Below, piece by piece: positions 20,512 through 27,716 of a stretch of 64,000 bases of DNA. The translations under genes and the position numbers were made by a program. How positions within the stretch are numbered: the stretch's first letter is position 1; every line of letters starts with the position of its first letter. The DNA is from Halothiobacillus neapolitanus c2. GTDB lineage: Bacteria > Pseudomonadota > Gammaproteobacteria > Halothiobacillales > Halothiobacillaceae. The notes under the pieces were generated by a model. That model saw only the letters and a list, made by a program, of their open reading frames with translations, was not told the origin of the DNA and did not search any database. The stretch is taken from assembly GCF_000024765.1 (NCBI RefSeq), contig NC_013422.1, forward strand, positions 2,003,501 through 2,067,500, written 5' to 3'.

Positions 20512-20946
20512 TCACGCGGATAACCGACCACGCACCCAGCGCAGCAAGGCACCAAGCACGGGTACTTGGCTGTATAACTGCTCCGCCGGATCCCAATAAT
20601 CGACATGGTCCACCACCAAGCCCTCATCATCGAACATCACGCGGCTCACGCCGACCAGCCTCAAATCACTCGGCGCACCGCATAAAAAGCGCCAATAAAA
20701 AAACACCACGCGCGCATCCGGCACTAAGGCCATTTCATCGACGACAAACCGCAAATTCGGGCAGTTCTTGTAGCCATGCGCGAACACACGCACGATGGCC
20801 TCGCGCCCCGTCACATCGTTGAAAGGATCTTTGAAGTGGGCATCTGGCGTGAACGCTTCGGATAGGACTTCAAGCTGATCGGCTTGCAGGCTCTCTATTA
20901 CTTTACGAAAACGATTGGCGGCTTCGGCGATGGGTACGGGCGTCAT
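20512..20946 (-). CDS. NTF2-like (SnoaL-type) protein of the lipid-modification cluster
   Basis: The 144-residue protein has the NTF2-like cone fold pattern: an N-terminal helix (ANRFRKVIESLQ), DAHFKDPFNDVTGREAIVRVF, then beta strands LRFVVDEMALVPDARVVFFYWRF and a last strand ending HVDYWDP. Such small proteins often bind hydrophobic substrates. It overlaps the SDR gene by four bases and is read after it. In other proteobacteria this family travels with SDR, FAD oxidase, DUF1365 and Cfa genes, as here. No catalytic activity can be assigned. Confidence 0.8.
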   Translation of the reverse strand: MTPVPIAEAANRFRKVIESLQADQLEVLSEAFTPDAHFKDPFNDVTGREAIVRVFAHGYKNCPNLRFVVDEMALVPDARVVFFYWRFLCGAPSDLRLVGVSRVMFDDEGLVVDHVDYWDPAEQLYSQVPVLGALLRWVRGRLSA

Positions 20947-21713
20947 TTTTTCAACATCCTGCGTGTCAGCGCAAAAAAGAGGCGATAGGGCAAGATGCGG
21001 ATTAGTTTCATCACCAAACCAAAACCGGTGGGAACTAACAGCTCAAAACCCGAACGATTCAATTTGCGAATAATCAGGCGCGCGGCCTCTTCTGGCTCGA
21101 TGATACCGGGCATCTCGAAATCGTTTTTTTCGGTGAGCGGCGTGCGCACAAACCCGGGGTTAATCACGCGAAGGGCAACACCGCGCTGGGCAAATTCCGG
21201 CGCAAGCGACTCGGCCATATTGATCAAAGCAGCCTTAGTTGCGCCATAAGGCGCTGCATTGGGCAACCCGCGAAACCCGGCGACGCTCGCCGTAATGATG
21301 ATCTCGCCGGCACCTTGAGCCAAAAAATGGCCGCGCACCGCGTCGATACCGTGAATCACGCCCATGAAGTTGATGCGCATCAAGCGTTCAAACAAGGCCG
21401 GATCGAAATCATCAAGGCTCATGGGCGCGTAGTCGGCTGCGTTCAAGATGACGCGATCAAGCTGCCCCCAATGCGCCAAGATTGCTGATAAACCGTCTTT
21501 GAGTGTTGATGGCTCGGTCACATCAACCAGAACACACTGAATGGTTTCTGGGAAACGCTCCGCAAGTGTTTGGAGCGCTTCGATTCGTCGCGCCGACACC
21601 ACCACACAAAAGCCCTGTTGAAGTAACCCTTCCGCCAGGGCGAGGCCAATGCCGCTGCTTCCACCAACAATCCAGATAACTTGCTTTTGGCCTATATTAT
21701 TTGCAGCTTTCAT
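20943..21713 (-). CDS. Short-chain dehydrogenase/reductase of the lipid-modification cluster
   Basis: This 256-residue SDR has the classical cofactor motif GGSSGIGLALAE near the N-terminus, NAADYAPM (an NNAG variant), Ser in ITASVAGFRG, and the YGATK Tyr-Lys pair of the active site. The C-terminal 30 residues are basic and hydrophobic (KLIRILPYRLFFALTRRMLKK), suggesting membrane contact. It begins the minus-strand arm of the divergent cluster, 204 bases from the FAD oxidase gene. The substrate is unknown; a lipid-derived carbonyl compound is an inference from the neighbours. Confidence 0.85.
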   Translation of the reverse strand: MKAANNIGQKQVIWIVGGSSGIGLALAEGLLQQGFCVVVSARRIEALQTLAERFPETIQCVLVDVTEPSTLKDGLSAILAHWGQLDRVILNAADYAPMSLDDFDPALFERLMRINFMGVIHGIDAVRGHFLAQGAGEIIITASVAGFRGLPNAAPYGATKAALINMAESLAPEFAQRGVALRVINPGFVRTPLTEKNDFEMPGIIEPEEAARLIIRKLNRSGFELLVPTGFGLVMKLIRILPYRLFFALTRRMLKK

Positions 21714-21796
21714 GCACCCCCCAAGACAAAACGATTAAACACACCGGCATAGCAACCCGCAGCTTATTGAGCACAGAAATTAAAAATACTCTAAAA

Positions 21797-21837
21797 TTGG
21801 CTAAAAAGTTGTACACAATCTATACATTAATGGCACA
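21797..21837 (+). promoter_or_regulatory. Candidate promoter with 11-bp-phased LitR/CarH-like operator
   Basis: Three half-sites on the plus strand, TGTACA (21810), TATACA (21821) and GGCACA (21832), are spaced exactly 11 bases apart and share a central ACA. This is the layout known for MerR-family, B12-dependent photoreceptor operators (CarH/LitR). A -35 candidate TTGGCT (21797-21802) and -10 candidate TATACA (21821-21826) with 18 bases between them overlap the array. It sits between the two arms of the lipid cluster and could control both. The regulator gene is not in the window. Confidence 0.5.
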
Positions 21838-21917
21838 TGCATCCAAACACAATGATGCTGCGTATAAGTTTTACAGGCCGATTAACCCCCTTTTGAATCA
21901 CTCATCCAAAGAATCCA

Positions 21918-23219
21918 ATGAATCCAGAAGAAAAGAACACCGCTCAATCAGCCCTGAACATCGCCGTGATTGGTTCCGGCATTTCTGGAATCGCAGCGGC
22001 TTGGTTGTTGAGCGAGAAACATCGGGTTCATCTGTTTGAGAAAAACGATTACATCGGCGGCCATACCCATACACACGCGATGGACGATCACGGTCAAACG
22101 GTCAACGTCGATACCGGTTTTATCGTATTCAATCGGCCCAATTACCCGCATTTAACCGGCATGCTCAAGCACTTCAATTTGCCCACGCAACCAACCGAAA
22201 TGTCTTTTGGCGTGAGCTTGGATCAGGGGCGGCTTGAATATGGCGGGAACAATTTAGCCACGCTGTTCGCGCAGAAAACCAATTTACTGCGTCCACGATT
22301 CCTGCGCATGGTGCAAGACATCCTACGCTTTAATCGAGAAGGTAAGTCGGCTTTGCACGATGCCGGTTTTACCAATGCAGAATCTCTCAATGACTTTCTC
22401 GACCGACACCGTTTTGGCGAAGGGATGCGAGATGATTATTTACTGCCGATGGCGGCGGCCATTTGGTCCTGCCCAACGGAAATCATGCTCAAATTTCCTG
22501 CCCGCAGTTTCTTGCAGTTTTTTGAAAATCACGGCTTGATGAACGTGAACGAACGACCGCAATGGGAGACGATTTGTGGCGGATCGCGTCGATACATTGA
22601 AGCGATTGCGGCAGAAAATCGATTCACCATTCATGCCAATAAAGCCATTGATCACGTTCGTCGGACCGAAAATGGCGTTTATCTTGCCGATGTTGACGAG
22701 CATTTCGATGCCTGCGTGTTTGCAGGCCATGCAGACCAAACATTGGCATCACTGACGGACGCGGACCCTCAGGAACACAAGATTCTGAGCGCATTCAAAT
22801 TTCAGGAAAATCAAGCCTACCTGCATCACGACATTTCATTAATGCCCAAGCGTCGCGCGGTTTGGTCAAGCTGGAATTACTTGGGGCAAAAAAACGAATC
22901 CTCCGGTCGCGCTGTTGCCGTTACCTATTGGATGAACCATTTACAGCAGCTTCAAACGGATACCGACTGGCTGGTAACACTCAACCCGTTTGCGCCACCA
23001 AAACCTGAATTGACCCGCAAGAAAATCACCTACCACCATCCGGTATTCGATGACAAAACGGCCGTTGCCCAGCAAGAATTGAGCAGCATTCAAGGCCATA
23101 GGCATTGCTATTACGCCGGTGCTTGGACCGGTTATGGTTTTCATGAAGATGGTTTGCGATCCGCCGTGAATGTGGCGGCCGCATTTGGCATCACGCCTCC
23201 CTGGCAGACCGGCAAATGA
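21918..23219 (+). CDS. FAD-dependent amine-oxidase-family protein of the lipid-modification cluster
   Basis: The 433-residue protein begins with the dinucleotide-binding motif IAVIGSGISGIAAAWLL and the following Glu (VHLFEKN), then GGHTHTH and VDTGFIVFNRPNYP, as in the NAD(P)-binding flavoproteins annotated as amine oxidases or fatty-acid desaturases. The C-terminus has the second FAD motif YYAGAWTGYGFHEDGLRSA. Related proteins next to Cfa-type enzymes have been linked to furan or other unusual fatty acid synthesis. It begins the plus-strand operon; its stop overlaps the DUF1365 start by four bases. Confidence 0.85.
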   Translation: MNPEEKNTAQSALNIAVIGSGISGIAAAWLLSEKHRVHLFEKNDYIGGHTHTHAMDDHGQTVNVDTGFIVFNRPNYPHLTGMLKHFNLPTQPTEMSFGVSLDQGRLEYGGNNLATLFAQKTNLLRPRFLRMVQDILRFNREGKSALHDAGFTNAESLNDFLDRHRFGEGMRDDYLLPMAAAIWSCPTEIMLKFPARSFLQFFENHGLMNVNERPQWETICGGSRRYIEAIAAENRFTIHANKAIDHVRRTENGVYLADVDEHFDACVFAGHADQTLASLTDADPQEHKILSAFKFQENQAYLHHDISLMPKRRAVWSSWNYLGQKNESSGRAVAVTYWMNHLQQLQTDTDWLVTLNPFAPPKPELTRKKITYHHPVFDDKTAVAQQELSSIQGHRHCYYAGAWTGYGFHEDGLRSAVNVAAAFGITPPWQTGK

Positions 23220-24010
23220 GCGCCAGTACGCTCTTCATCGGCAAAGTCATGCACCAGCGGATGCGTGGCCCGGCCTATCGCTTTGAGTATCGCGTATTCA
23301 GCTTGCTGGTCGATTTGGACGACTATGAGCAAAATTTCCCCGCCCTGCGCTGGTTGTCGGCCAACCGATTCAATCTATTTTCAGTTCATGCGCGGGATTT
23401 AGGGCCACGTAAAAAAAACGCATCGCTGCGCGAATGGATCAACCAAGCCTGTGCCGATCAAGGTTTTGATATTTCACAAGGTCGCGTGCTCATCAATACC
23501 TACCCCCGCGTGCTTGGCTACCAGTTCAACCCGCTCAATGTTTGGTATTGCTTTGATCAAGCGCAGCAACTGGTGGCGATTGATTGCGAAGTGAGCAATA
23601 CCTTCGGCGAATTTCATCATTATTTGCTGCACGATCATGGCAACCCATTGGAACTGCCGTTCCAAGCCAGCGCAGACAAGGTTTTTCACGTATCGCCCTT
23701 TCTTGATATGGCAATGCGCTATCACTTTAAATTCAACCAACCCGCCGAACGGCTGAGTGTTTCAATTCGAGAAAATGCACTCACCGAAACCGGTGAAGAA
23801 CTGACGCTGGTCGCAACGCATCAAGCGCATCGTCAACCATTGAGCGACAGGCGGTTATGGCTTGAAGCATTAAGAATCCCCTTACTCACGTTCAAAGTCA
23901 TCGGCCTGATTCATTGGCACGCTTTGAAAATATGGCTCAAAGGCGGCGTGTTCCATAAATCGCCGCCCAAACCTTCTTCGGAGATCAGCTCATGCCCCAA
24001 ATCCAAATAA
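23216..24010 (+). CDS. DUF1365 family protein
   Basis: DUF1365 proteins regularly accompany FAD oxidase and cyclopropane-fatty-acid-synthase-type genes. The 264-residue sequence has the typical start VMHQRMRGPAYRFEYRVF, the conserved TYPRVLGYQFNPLNVWYC and EVSNTFGE, and then DKVFHVSPFL with YHFKF behind it. No enzyme activity has been firmly assigned to the family. The ATGA overlap upstream and the 19-base overlap with the next gene show tight coupling in the operon. The short C-terminal membrane-proximal part is basic. Confidence 0.88.
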   Translation: MSASTLFIGKVMHQRMRGPAYRFEYRVFSLLVDLDDYEQNFPALRWLSANRFNLFSVHARDLGPRKKNASLREWINQACADQGFDISQGRVLINTYPRVLGYQFNPLNVWYCFDQAQQLVAIDCEVSNTFGEFHHYLLHDHGNPLELPFQASADKVFHVSPFLDMAMRYHFKFNQPAERLSVSIRENALTETGEELTLVATHQAHRQPLSDRRLWLEALRIPLLTFKVIGLIHWHALKIWLKGGVFHKSPPKPSSEISSCPKSK

Positions 24011-25266
24011 AAGCGATGAAGAACAACGATCTTGATCTACCGCTCTCCGCTCGATGGGTACACTCTTTGCTGGGTGGGATACGCATCGGGCAGATCCGCG
24101 TACTCACCGATGAAGGCCATGAACACACGTTTGCAGGTCAATCGCATCCCGAACTTAAAGTCGAGTGGCGCTTGCACCATCCCGCCCGGCTGCTGTCGCG
24201 CTTGGCGCGGCTGGGCGACATTGGCATCGCCGAAGCATACATCCATGGCGATTTTTCCACCGACAACCTGACACGTTTGTTGGAAATCGGCGCACGCAAT
24301 ATGGATGTGATGGCGGATGACTTGCGTGCCGGGTTCTGGGCTCGGTTGATTCACCGCTTGCAACATGCGCTGAGAAGCAATCACAAGCGGGGCAGTCGGC
24401 GCAATATTTCCGCTCATTATGATTTGGGAAACGAGTTTTATCGTCTGTGGCTGGATCCCAGCATGACCTACTCATCCGCCCTGTTCAGCCGTCCCGATGA
24501 ACCGATGGCCGAAGCGCAAGCACGGAAATACCAACGTTTGATTGATGCGCTTGAAGCGAAACCCGATGATCACATCCTTGAAATAGGCTGTGGCTGGGGT
24601 GGTTTTGCCGAACAAGCGACACAACAAGGTATTCACGTATCCGGCATTACCCTGTCGACTGAGCAACAGGCGTTTTCCATTGAGCGAATGGCACGAGCGA
24701 AGGTGCCCGCTCAGGCCAAATTTTTCTTAACGGATTACCGTGATCAAACCGGCACGTTCGATCACATCGTATCCGTCGAGATGTTCGAGGCCGTCGGCGA
24801 ACGCTACTGGCCGACATATTTTCAGACCATCTACGATCGGCTTAAGCCGGGGGGACGCGCAGCTATCCAGGTCATCACAATTTCAGAGAAGGCCTTCGAA
24901 TCCTATCGGCGCGAGCCGGATTTCATCCAGTTGTACATATTTCCCGGCGGCATGTTGCCCACCATCGAGCTATTTACCCAAGGCGCCAAGCATGCAGGAC
25001 TGGAAGTAAAAGATACCTTCCTTTTCGGCAAAGATTACGCCCGCACCTTGAGTCTCTGGGCAGAATCGTTCAATCAACACACCGAAGCGCTGGACGCGCT
25101 GGGCTTCGATGAGCGTTTTCGCAAAACATGGCAGTACTACCTTGCCTATTGTGAAGCCGGTTTCTTGGCAGAACACATCAACGTGGCGCAAGTTCTGCTC
25201 GAAAAGCCGAAAAACGCCACAGTCAGATCACAAGCTGCGGCCACAGAATCTAAGGATATGGCGTGA
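23992..25266 (+). CDS. Cyclopropane-fatty-acyl-phospholipid synthase family methyltransferase
   Basis: The 424-residue protein is a Cfa-type SAM methyltransferase acting on unsaturated acyl chains in phospholipids. The SAM motif LEIGCGWGGFAEQA is preceded by HYDLGNEFYRLWLDPSMTYS and followed by VSVEMFEAVGERYW, all strongly Cfa-like. A late region with YIFPGGMLPT and a Tyr-rich helix matches the catalytic domain. The ATG at 23992 has GGAG eight bases before it. In this gene context the product may be a methylated furan-type precursor (UfaM-like) rather than a cyclopropane; sequence alone does not decide. Confidence 0.88.
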   Translation: MPQIQIKAMKNNDLDLPLSARWVHSLLGGIRIGQIRVLTDEGHEHTFAGQSHPELKVEWRLHHPARLLSRLARLGDIGIAEAYIHGDFSTDNLTRLLEIGARNMDVMADDLRAGFWARLIHRLQHALRSNHKRGSRRNISAHYDLGNEFYRLWLDPSMTYSSALFSRPDEPMAEAQARKYQRLIDALEAKPDDHILEIGCGWGGFAEQATQQGIHVSGITLSTEQQAFSIERMARAKVPAQAKFFLTDYRDQTGTFDHIVSVEMFEAVGERYWPTYFQTIYDRLKPGGRAAIQVITISEKAFESYRREPDFIQLYIFPGGMLPTIELFTQGAKHAGLEVKDTFLFGKDYARTLSLWAESFNQHTEALDALGFDERFRKTWQYYLAYCEAGFLAEHINVAQVLLEKPKNATVRSQAAATESKDMA

Positions 25267-26585
25267 ACCCAAACGCCAATTTATCCCTCGGGCAAGTGCT
25301 CGCTTACGGCGCAACCGGATTGCCATTAGCCATTATGGGTATCCCCTTATATGTGTACCTGCCCCCGTTCTACGCACAGCAATTAGGGCTGGGGCTGGGC
25401 GCCGTGGGCTTGGCCTTGATGATCAGCCGTTTGTGGGATGTGATCCTCGACCCGATTGTCGGTTTTTACGCCGATCTGATTCCAGGCCGCCATCGCAGAA
25501 AAACGTTGATGCTCATCGGGCTACCGCTGTTTCTACTCGCAACGTATTTCTTGCTCAATCCGCCGCCTCAAGTGGGCATCGCTTATCTTTACTTATGGGC
25601 GATGCTGGGGTTTCTGGCCTGGACGCTGATTACGATCCCGTACACCAGTTTTGGCGCCGAGGCCGACCCCACGCCCCAAGGCCGCACCCGTCTGTCCGCA
25701 TCACGCGAGGGCTTTGGTTTGATCGGCGTGATATTGGCCGCCAGCCTGCCGGTGTTCCTGACGTCACACACCTCAGGTGAGACTCAAGCGGCGAATGGTG
25801 ACCTGCTCAGTGTCGTATTTTGGTTGATGGCCATCTTGCTGCCCATCGGGTTGGTGCTGTTGTTTGTAGCCGTGCCCGAAAAACCCGCCACGCGCCGCCC
25901 CATCAAATTGAGCGCTGGCTGGCCCTTGCTGCGCGACAACCGTCAGCTTCGCGGCACCTTGGTCGGTTTTTTCCTTAACAATTTGGCCAATGGCATTCCG
26001 GCAGCGTTATTCATTCTGTTCATCAATGATCGACTGGCCGCGCCGCAGGCTTTAGGTCCATTACTGCTTTTGTATTTCGGCGCGGGTATCGTGGCTCTAC
26101 CCTTCTGGACCTGGGTTGCGCACCGATACGGCAAACGTTCGGCGTGGGGATTCTCGATCACGCTCGCGGGATTCAGTTTTCTAGCCGTGCCTTTTTTGCA
26201 TTCAGGCGATGTAACGGCTTTTGCAATGGTCTGCTTGATTTCCGGTTTTAGCTTGGGGGCGGATATGGCTTTACCCGCCTCTATCCAGGGCGATTTGGCC
26301 GGTGCTGATGCGGACGCCGGTGGCGGGGATCGCGCGGGCTTGTTTTTCGGTTTGTTTGGTCTCGTGACCAAGCTGGCACTGGCCATTGCCGTGGGTTTGG
26401 GTTACGGCTTGTTGAGCTTGGCGGGTTATCAATCGGGCGACAGCCATACCGATGCGCTCGCCTGGGTTTATGGCGGCCTGCCGGTTTTGTTCAAACTGGC
26501 CGCAGCACTGATTGTGTTTCGCTATCTTCACGACACGGAATCACTGGTTATTTCTTCCACTAAAATCAAAGAGGTTTCACCATGA
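25263..26585 (+). CDS. MFS transporter of the GPH (melibiose) type
   Basis: The 440-residue protein has about twelve membrane helices and the GPH-family features GLALMISRLWDVILDPIVGFYADL and PGRHRRKTLML after the second helix. GPH carriers are cation-coupled sugar symporters, but relatives in lipid clusters are unassigned. The start is GTG and overlaps the previous stop by four bases; its own stop overlaps the next start by four bases. Its place in the operon suggests transport or flipping of a lipid-linked or lipid-derived compound, which is inference only. Confidence 0.82.
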   Translation: MNPNANLSLGQVLAYGATGLPLAIMGIPLYVYLPPFYAQQLGLGLGAVGLALMISRLWDVILDPIVGFYADLIPGRHRRKTLMLIGLPLFLLATYFLLNPPPQVGIAYLYLWAMLGFLAWTLITIPYTSFGAEADPTPQGRTRLSASREGFGLIGVILAASLPVFLTSHTSGETQAANGDLLSVVFWLMAILLPIGLVLLFVAVPEKPATRRPIKLSAGWPLLRDNRQLRGTLVGFFLNNLANGIPAALFILFINDRLAAPQALGPLLLLYFGAGIVALPFWTWVAHRYGKRSAWGFSITLAGFSFLAVPFLHSGDVTAFAMVCLISGFSLGADMALPASIQGDLAGADADAGGGDRAGLFFGLFGLVTKLALAIAVGLGYGLLSLAGYQSGDSHTDALAWVYGGLPVLFKLAAALIVFRYLHDTESLVISSTKIKEVSP

Positions 26586-27118
26586 AACGATTTGCTTTGC
26601 TCGTTCTTCTTGCGTTTTCCATGACGGGGTGTGCCAGCTTGAATCTTGACCAATACACAAAAACCGAACCCAAATTCGATCTTGAGCAATATTTTGCGGG
26701 AGATACGTACGCCTGGGGGATCTTTCAATCACGCGGCGGGGAAATCAAACGCCAATTCAAAGTGCATATCGAAGGTAAAAAAGTCGGCGATGAATTTGTG
26801 TTAAGCGAACACTTTAAATACAACGATGGCGAAACGGGCGAGCGGGTATGGCACATCACGCGTGATGGGCAGGATCGCTATATCGGCAAGGCGGGGGATA
26901 TTGTCGGTGTGGCGCATGGGCACGAGGTGGGCCAAGCGCTCAACTGGCATTACACACTCAAACTACCGTACAACGGCAGCACGATTGATGTGAAATTCAA
27001 TGACTGGATGATTCGTGTTTCCAAAAACGTGATGATCAATCGTGCCTACGTGAGTAAGTTCGGTGTTCGTGTCGGTGAAGTAACCCTGTTTTTCACCAAA
27101 ACCGATCCGGATAAATAA
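26582..27118 (+). CDS. DUF3833 family lipoprotein
   Basis: The 178-residue protein begins with a lipoprotein signal peptide (MKRFALLVLLAFSMTGCAS, lipobox Cys17), so it should be anchored in a membrane facing the periplasm. The DUF3833 pattern is visible: FDLEQYFAGDTYAWGIFQSR, then basic and beta-rich stretches such as RQFKVHIEG, FKYNDGETGERVW and NRAYVSKFGVRVGEVTLFF. The family travels with Cfa/DUF1365 genes in many proteobacteria. It starts in an ATGA overlap and ends one base before the next ATG. Confidence 0.85.
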   Translation: MKRFALLVLLAFSMTGCASLNLDQYTKTEPKFDLEQYFAGDTYAWGIFQSRGGEIKRQFKVHIEGKKVGDEFVLSEHFKYNDGETGERVWHITRDGQDRYIGKAGDIVGVAHGHEVGQALNWHYTLKLPYNGSTIDVKFNDWMIRVSKNVMINRAYVSKFGVRVGEVTLFFTKTDPDK

Positions 27119-27119
27119 G

Positions 27120-27716
27120 ATGAGCAGCCACTCAATAGCCACGCTGGGCCGCTCGCGCCTACTCGCATCCACACTGCTCGTGTTGTCTTTGGGAGCAAGT
27201 AACCCTGTGCTTGCGAGCAATGAAACCATGCCAAAACAAATGCAATTGGGGCAAACGGACCTGACGTTGCTTGGGAAAGGCACGGCAACGTACCTCTGGT
27301 TTGATGTGTACGATGCCGCGCTCTATGCCCCTGAAAACATAAAGCCCGCGCAGATTCTTTCACAGGAAACACCCAGAGTGCTGGTGCTTCAGTATCACCA
27401 TGCCGTTACCGTGAAAGACATCGAAAAAGCGAGTTGGCAAACGCTGGATAAGCAACTCACGCCCAGCGAACTACAATCGATAAAACCTCAAGTCGATGCA
27501 CTTCAGTCCAGCATGAAAAACGTATCACCCGGTGATCAGTACACGTTGACGTGGCAACCGGCAAATGCACAAAAAAAGCCTGAACTGACGCTCAAGCTCA
27601 ATGACAAGATCGTATTCAAAAGCGATAACGCCCGCTTGGCCGCGACCTATTTCGGGATTTGGCTCGGCAAACCGCCGCTCTCCCAATCCCTGAAACGTTC
27701 GCTATTGGGTGGTTGA
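27120..27716 (+). CDS. Secreted chalcone isomerase-like protein
   Basis: The 198-residue protein has a signal sequence (STLLVLSLGASNPVLA) and a chalcone-isomerase-like fold: LGKGTATYLWFDVYDAALYAP, VLQYHHAVTVKDIEKASW, then GDQYTLTW and LGIW-type end FGIWLGKPPLSQSLKRSLLG. Bacterial members of this periplasmic group bind fatty-acid-like ligands in homologous folds but their function is unknown. It is the last gene of the plus-strand arm. Its stop codon directly abuts the stop of the convergent DUF2789 gene, with no base between them. Confidence 0.82.
   Translation: MSSHSIATLGRSRLLASTLLVLSLGASNPVLASNETMPKQMQLGQTDLTLLGKGTATYLWFDVYDAALYAPENIKPAQILSQETPRVLVLQYHHAVTVKDIEKASWQTLDKQLTPSELQSIKPQVDALQSSMKNVSPGDQYTLTWQPANAQKKPELTLKLNDKIVFKSDNARLAATYFGIWLGKPPLSQSLKRSLLGG

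Follow-up and report, generated by a model that had tools for sequence, protein, structure and literature searches.

The genome of Halothiobacillus neapolitanus c2 (a single contig of 2,582,886 bp, NC_013422.1) carries a divergent cluster of eight genes at positions 20512–27716 of a 64,000-nucleotide stretch, contig positions 2,003,501 to 2,067,500, that we analysed as a whole (the window). We conclude that this cluster is probably a light-derepressed operon for furan fatty acids (ufa), which LitR would repress in the dark and a LOV photoreceptor would release, and whose products would synthesize furan fatty acids and handle the modified lipid. The enzyme reactions and the LOV–LitR switch in this proposal are taken from homologues, and light induction in H. 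neapolitanus itself is what we infer from them.

All eight open reading frames, their coordinates and their overlaps were confirmed, and each protein matched its family above the Pfam cut-off, in agreement with a preliminary description of this DNA that had placed eight named families in two divergent arms. The plus arm (21918–27716) runs UfaD–UfaO–CMAS–MFS_2–DUF3833–Chalcone_3, with overlaps of 4 bases between UfaD and UfaO, 19 between UfaO and CMAS, 4 between CMAS and the MFS gene (which has a GTG start) and 4 between the MFS and DUF3833 genes, followed by a 1-base gap before Chalcone_3. The minus arm (21713–20512) consists of a short-chain dehydrogenase (SDR) gene and an NTF2-like gene that overlap by 4 bases, and a 204-base divergent promoter region separates the two arms.

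Judged by family and order, the central three genes correspond to the three established reactions by which bacteria make furan fatty acids. In Rhodobacter sphaeroides, the Cfa-like methyltransferase UfaM yields 11-methyl-12-trans-18:1, the FAD/NAD protein UfaD, a relative of phytoene desaturases, makes the methyl-diene, and the DUF1365 protein UfaO turns this into the methyl-furan by inserting O2 (PMC7380195). The corresponding genes of Rhodopseudomonas palustris lie in the order ufaD–ufaO–ufaM (RPA2571-2570-2569) (PMC7380195), which is also the order in the window. We assigned the enzymes by comparing family and gene order with these two sets. The predicted UfaD-type FAD-dependent fatty acyl desaturase (21918–23219, plus strand; 433 residues) matches Amino_oxidase and NAD_binding_8; in NCBIfam it comes closest to protoporphyrinogen oxidase and carotenoid desaturases, scoring far under each cut-off. 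The predicted UfaO-type fatty acyl oxygenase (23216–24010, plus strand; 264 residues) matches DUF1365 with an E value of 8.9e-77, and its AlphaFold model has a predicted local distance difference test score (pLDDT) of 84. Fold matches that might have suggested a haem role for this protein were weak (nitrobindin, Z ~7; Foldseek E 4e-3, TM 0.3), and we claim no such role. The preliminary description had spoken of UfaM/UfaO-type and Cfa-type enzymes beside an FAD oxidase; it was right about a furan gene set, and its list needs changing in one respect: the counterpart of UfaD is the FAD protein, and UfaO is the DUF1365 protein.

The association of these families extends well beyond the window. DUF1365 was found in 78 of 274 sampled Gammaproteobacteria, and our survey comprised 60 of those loci plus the window (61). 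Beside DUF1365 stood UfaD in 60 loci, CMAS in 58, SDR in 31, NTF2 in 23, DUF3833 and Chalcone_3 in 21 each and MFS_2 in 18; NTF2 was accompanied by SDR in 19 of its 23 loci, and all eight families occurred together in five (the window, L076, L077, L093 and L099). This co-occurrence is far from chance and bears out the expectation that the same families would be neighbours in other genomes. A further set of 80 named Rhodobacteraceae loci, among which Cereibacter sphaeroides itself was not returned, showed the order ChrR–ECF sigma–UfaD–UfaO–MFS–DUF3833–SDR in 61 (ECF, extracytoplasmic function). The window arm UfaD–UfaO–(UfaM)–MFS–DUF3833 is collinear with this operon, whose last gene, SDR, is the counterpart of the SDR gene on the minus arm. 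The MFS, DUF3833 and SDR genes have been described as restricted to Rhodobacteraceae (Nuss et al. 2013, PMC3818230); their homologues are widespread in Gammaproteobacteria too. Separately, MFS_2 and DUF2878 were never found together in survey loci L046–L105 (0 of 18, against 22 with DUF2878; 6.5 expected) and mark two subtypes. This exclusion largely follows two UfaM subclades, and for this reason we did not accept it as separate support for equal function.

The third enzyme (23992–25266, plus strand; 424 residues; CMAS E 2.4e-82) is predicted to be a UfaM-type S-adenosylmethionine methyltransferase of the CMAS fold. As a member of the CMAS family whose nearest solved structures are Cfa enzymes, it might instead be an ordinary cyclopropane synthase, through which the cluster would alter membrane fluidity under stress. 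We regard this as highly improbable. The protein scores far below every NCBIfam Cfa equivalog cut-off, whereas the Cfa L005, whose gene lies at another place in the genome, passes one of them with 598 bits against 400. In Escherichia coli Cfa the catalytic bicarbonate is bound by Glu239, His266 and Tyr317 (PMC11387697); the window protein keeps the Glu and Tyr ligands and has Gln at the His266 position, so that the Cfa ligand set is incomplete, while L005 retains all three. The Gln recurs in 52 of 55 UfaO-linked CMAS proteins of the first survey, all 55 of which keep Glu239 and Tyr317, and in 13 of 14 of a second set that includes Rhodobacteraceae. A quick tree placed the window protein in a UfaM-type clade linked to UfaD and UfaO (70 rows, support 99) with L005 outside, and grouped it with two relatives from the same family at support 100. 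Moreover, a gammaproteobacterial UfaM, that of Halomonas, yields a furan intermediate in E. coli (PMC12089945). Where the preliminary description had offered furan or cyclopropane fatty acids, gene order and the UfaM clade favour furan, and a cyclopropane product appears unlikely because of the His266-to-Gln change, the separate clade and the true Cfa elsewhere. Some ufa clusters (L046–L068, L092, L105 and L158) are additionally accompanied by CMAS proteins of another, separate clade, in which His266 is followed two residues later by a Phe. These often occur with a fatty acid desaturase, with DUF1295 or with a Blc-type lipocalin, and probably belong to another lipid-modifying set.

The divergent promoter contains TGTACA-CAATC-TATACA (21810–21826), that is, two 11-bp direct repeats, with a degenerate third, GGCACA, at 21832–21837. 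CarH/LitR operators are tandem 11-bp direct repeats of the form nnnnTnnACAn (PMC9304148, PMC8156234), and the window thus has a putative site of the kind that a target promoter of the LitR switch would carry. In the 2.58-Mb genome TRTAYA-N5-TRTAYA has a single match, at this position, and its reversed control has none. Among 59 ufaD upstream regions, 6 had the perfect repeat and 9 had it with at most one mismatch (shuffled sequences gave 0 and 0.45), and a gap of 5 bases stood out sharply among the spacings. LitR was present in 9 of 9 operator-bearing genomes compared with 17 of 50 others (p=2.5e-4), and in 8 of 8 with the window left out (p=6e-4). Each of 27 Halothiobacillaceae genomes had 0–3 copies of the pattern, and the reversed control gave few matches. 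The 36 sites that were retrieved precede ufaD (14), a sigma factor gene, rpoS (14), a PAS chemoreceptor gene (6), SDR/litR (1) and an integrase-like gene (1). Those upstream of ufaD are strongly conserved and often form three tandem repeats, TGTGCA-N5-TGTACA-N5-TATACA. The sequence and its aligned relatives point to a possible sigma-70-type promoter, TTGGCT-N18-TATACA (21797–21826, plus strand), whose −10 element would be the second operator repeat; it fell below the threshold of a mechanical promoter scan, which returned no sigma-70 site in the intergenic region. The sites before chemoreceptor genes lie upstream of PAS-PAS methyl-accepting chemotaxis genes in six Halothiobacillaceae genomes (L293, L295, L303, L308, L313 and L324) and suggest that light may also tune taxis.

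The genome encodes one CarH/LitR-like MerR protein, at contig positions 1,714,671–1,715,702, ~0.3 Mb from the cluster. It matches MerR_1 (7e-17) and has a weak B12-binding_2 stretch below cut-off. A short LOV gene with the photoactive-Cys motif CRFLQ follows litR directly; its best NCBIfam match is the YtvA family, below that family's cut-off. By gene order and domains this is the arrangement of a class II LitR with a short LOV. In Pseudomonas mendocina, PmlR2 (LitR) acts as a repressor in darkness until illuminated PmSB-LOV binds and releases it; UfaM of Pseudomonas putida is light-regulated by LitR/LOV (PMC9758184). In two sister-genus genomes (G269 and G158) the LitR–LOV pair adjoins SDR and NTF2, the minus-arm genes of the window, and in L099 and L100 it lies beside the main cluster. 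The genome also has three matches to the photolyase/cryptochrome family (L136, L137 and L138). One of these matches contains a TGA, and the operator pattern coincides with none of the three.

Related gene sets respond to singlet oxygen through an ECF sigma factor and ChrR, as in Rhodobacter and Vibrio, and the furan cluster could be induced in this way rather than by LitR/LOV. ECF–ChrR genes stand beside UfaD in 8 of the 61 gammaproteobacterial loci (a LitR-like MerR gene in 15) and in most named Rhodobacteraceae loci. We consider such control quite unlikely here. A family search of the genome found no ChrR above the TIGR02451 cut-off, and in the seven ChrR loci whose ufaD upstream region was scored the operator was always missing, whereas the window carries it. 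The Cupin_7 matches that might have stood for ChrR come from a single two-cupin protein without an anti-sigma part (L009:1417-2178, contig ~1.483 Mb), which adjoins a nitroreductase-like gene. The preliminary description had linked the cluster to light or singlet-oxygen gene sets, where it does belong, and had left its signal open; this need no longer be so, because LitR and a short LOV are present, ChrR is absent and the promoter holds a LitR/CarH-type operator.

The remaining genes of the plus arm most likely form a lipid-handling arm, which would move lysolipids or modified chains beyond the inner membrane. The MFS_2 carrier (25263–26585, plus strand; 440 residues; MFS_2 1.2e-66) had been called a GPH-type carrier but is nearer to lysophospholipid symporters than to sugar carriers: its closest solved relatives are the MFSD2A lysophosphatidylcholine symporters (3.8e-18, against 6e-07 for MelB), and it reaches 103 bits in the GPH model against a cut-off of 231. 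The residues aligned to Asp19 and Asp124, the sugar-binding residues of MelB, are not Asp, and the WDxxxDP motif, the MFSD2A-like cation-site Asp pair, is retained. The DUF3833 lipoprotein (26582–27118, plus strand; 178 residues; DUF3833 8.1e-66; lipobox MTGC) is modelled with pLDDT 90 as a closed ten-stranded antiparallel barrel, with structural matches of Z 13–15 to nitrobindin, CPES lyase and OssO and weaker ones to fatty acid-binding proteins; at the level of fold only, this model would make it calycin- or lipocalin-like. For the Chalcone_3 protein (27120–27716, plus strand; 198 residues; Chalcone_3 6e-26) no solved sequence relative was found in the PDB; inspection by eye indicates a probable signal peptide ending VLA-S. 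The lipobox and this signal peptide accord with the earlier suggestion that some members act outside the inner membrane.

The SDR (20943–21713, minus strand; 256 residues; adh_short 1.8e-44) and the NTF2/SnoaL_2-like protein (20512–20946, minus strand; 144 residues; SnoaL_2 E 4.9e-14), the first and second genes of the minus arm, have enzyme folds and travel together. Chalcone_3 is an isomerase-like family, and the structural matches of DUF3833 include the spirocyclases OssO and OlmO. These four proteins and the carrier might therefore modify the chain instead of transporting it, and the product might fall short of furan or go beyond it (methyl-branched, methyl-diene or further processed). This seems unlikely: UfaO is intact and conserved beside UfaD, the MFS and DUF3833 proteins have transport- or binding-type relatives, and deleting the R. 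sphaeroides counterparts of the accessory genes one at a time did not alter its fatty acids (PMC7380195).

Together, these observations allow us to propose how the ufa operon may work. In the dark, class II LitR would sit on the two 11-bp direct repeats of the divergent promoter and block it. Blue light would form a flavin–cysteine adduct in the short LOV protein, which would then bind LitR and take it off the promoter, as PmSB-LOV does with PmlR2 in P. mendocina. UfaM would methylate cis-vaccenoyl chains in phospholipid to 11-methyl-12-trans-18:1, UfaD would desaturate these to the methylated diene, and UfaO would insert O2 to give the methyl-furan chain, for which a protective role against singlet oxygen and damage of that kind has been proposed. 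Beyond the inner membrane, handling of the modified chain or (lyso)lipid would most likely fall to the MFSD2A-like carrier, the lipocalin-like DUF3833 protein and the exported Chalcone_3 protein. The proposal names a likely product, sensor and operator for an otherwise unexplained lipid cluster of a sulfur-oxidizing chemolithoautotroph, and bears on why a non-phototroph readies its membrane for light. It also suggests that the accessory genes of ufa operons may form an arm that handles lysolipids or fatty acids, and that the LOV–LitR switch may drive rpoS.

Several points weigh against a LOV–LitR-controlled furan operon. The enzymes were compared with members of the same family, not with the R. 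sphaeroides proteins themselves, and the LitR of H. neapolitanus is just 25–28% identical to the other aligned LitR proteins. Several operator-bearing genomes outside the family have no LOV within ~3 kb of LitR, so LOV is not a universal partner of LitR. The seed pattern originated in the window, and the related genomes lack phylogenetic independence; arguments against an artefact are the sharp preference for one spacing, the association with LitR that persists when the window is omitted, and the clean list of targets. Class II LitR sites in Pseudomonas have been reported with 12-base rather than 5-base spacing (PMC9758184). Finally, R. sphaeroides can make furan fatty acids without its MFS, DUF3833 and SDR genes (PMC7380195), which by analogy would fit transport or placement better than synthesis and does not prove either.

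The operator pattern points to a second target of the switch. Perfect LitR-type sites precede rpoS in 14 related genomes. The rpoS gene of H. neapolitanus lies 12 kb from the end of the window (L328:11780-12808, minus strand; contig ~2.0793–2.0803 Mb) and scores above both RpoS cut-offs, and its upstream region (within L328:11780-12949) holds degenerate copies, TGTGCA-N5-TGTGCA and one single-mismatch site; it keeps TGTGCATAACTTGTGCA, aligned with TGTACATAACTTGTACA in same-genus genomes. Only two one-mismatch sites occur in 400 kb of H. neapolitanus DNA, one of them before rpoS. The region appears orthologous to that of the relatives because they have the divergent neighbour gene in common. 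A transposase-like open reading frame lies just downstream of rpoS (L328:10347-11405). Whether one LOV acting through LitR controls both the furan-lipid cluster and rpoS in Halothiobacillaceae, such that blue light turns on RpoS, the sigma factor of the general stress response, seems to us evenly balanced. LOV domains are already wired to general stress sigma factors in two ways, through YtvA and SigB and through LOV kinases and EcfG; a LOV–LitR–rpoS link, if true, would be a third and independent wiring. It looks new: an incomplete literature search found no publication linking LitR, RpoS and blue-light photoreception.

The closest known systems share parts of this design. The three enzyme families are common to the window, R. 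palustris RPA2571-2568 and R. sphaeroides RSP1091-1087 with RSP2144 (PMC7380195); the window shares the ufaD–ufaO–ufaM order with R. palustris and the downstream MFS–DUF3833 order with Rhodobacteraceae operons. It differs from both in having UfaM inside an operon with MFS, DUF3833 and Chalcone_3, in placing SDR and NTF2 on a divergent arm, and in carrying a LitR-type operator where those systems are under RpoE/ChrR control. The Pseudomonas regulon (PplR1-3 of P. putida, PmlR1/PmlR2 and PmSB-LOV of P. mendocina; PMC9758184) has the same combination of class II LitR and short LOV, and its light-regulated genes likewise include SDR, an FAD protein and UfaM (PMC9758184). The H. neapolitanus LitR–LOV pair, however, lies ~0.3 Mb from its cluster, its operator repeats are 5 rather than 12 bases apart, and the related loci L153 and L154 have DUF2878 in place of the MFS_2 gene. 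The CarH operators of Thermus, Bacillus and myxobacteria (PMC9304148, PMC8156234) are, like that of the window, tandem 11-bp repeats of nnnnTnnACAn at the promoter; CarH senses light with B12, whereas the LitR described here has only a weak B12-binding_2 stretch and a LOV partner. Vibrio cholerae responds to blue light through SigE/ChrR and a MerR regulator (PMC5241685), unlike H. neapolitanus with no ChrR above cut-off, and is similarly a non-phototroph: its blue-light-induced genes include VC1118 and the Cfa-like VC1122 (PMC5241685), just as the window places a Cfa-like gene in a bacterium that does not live by light.

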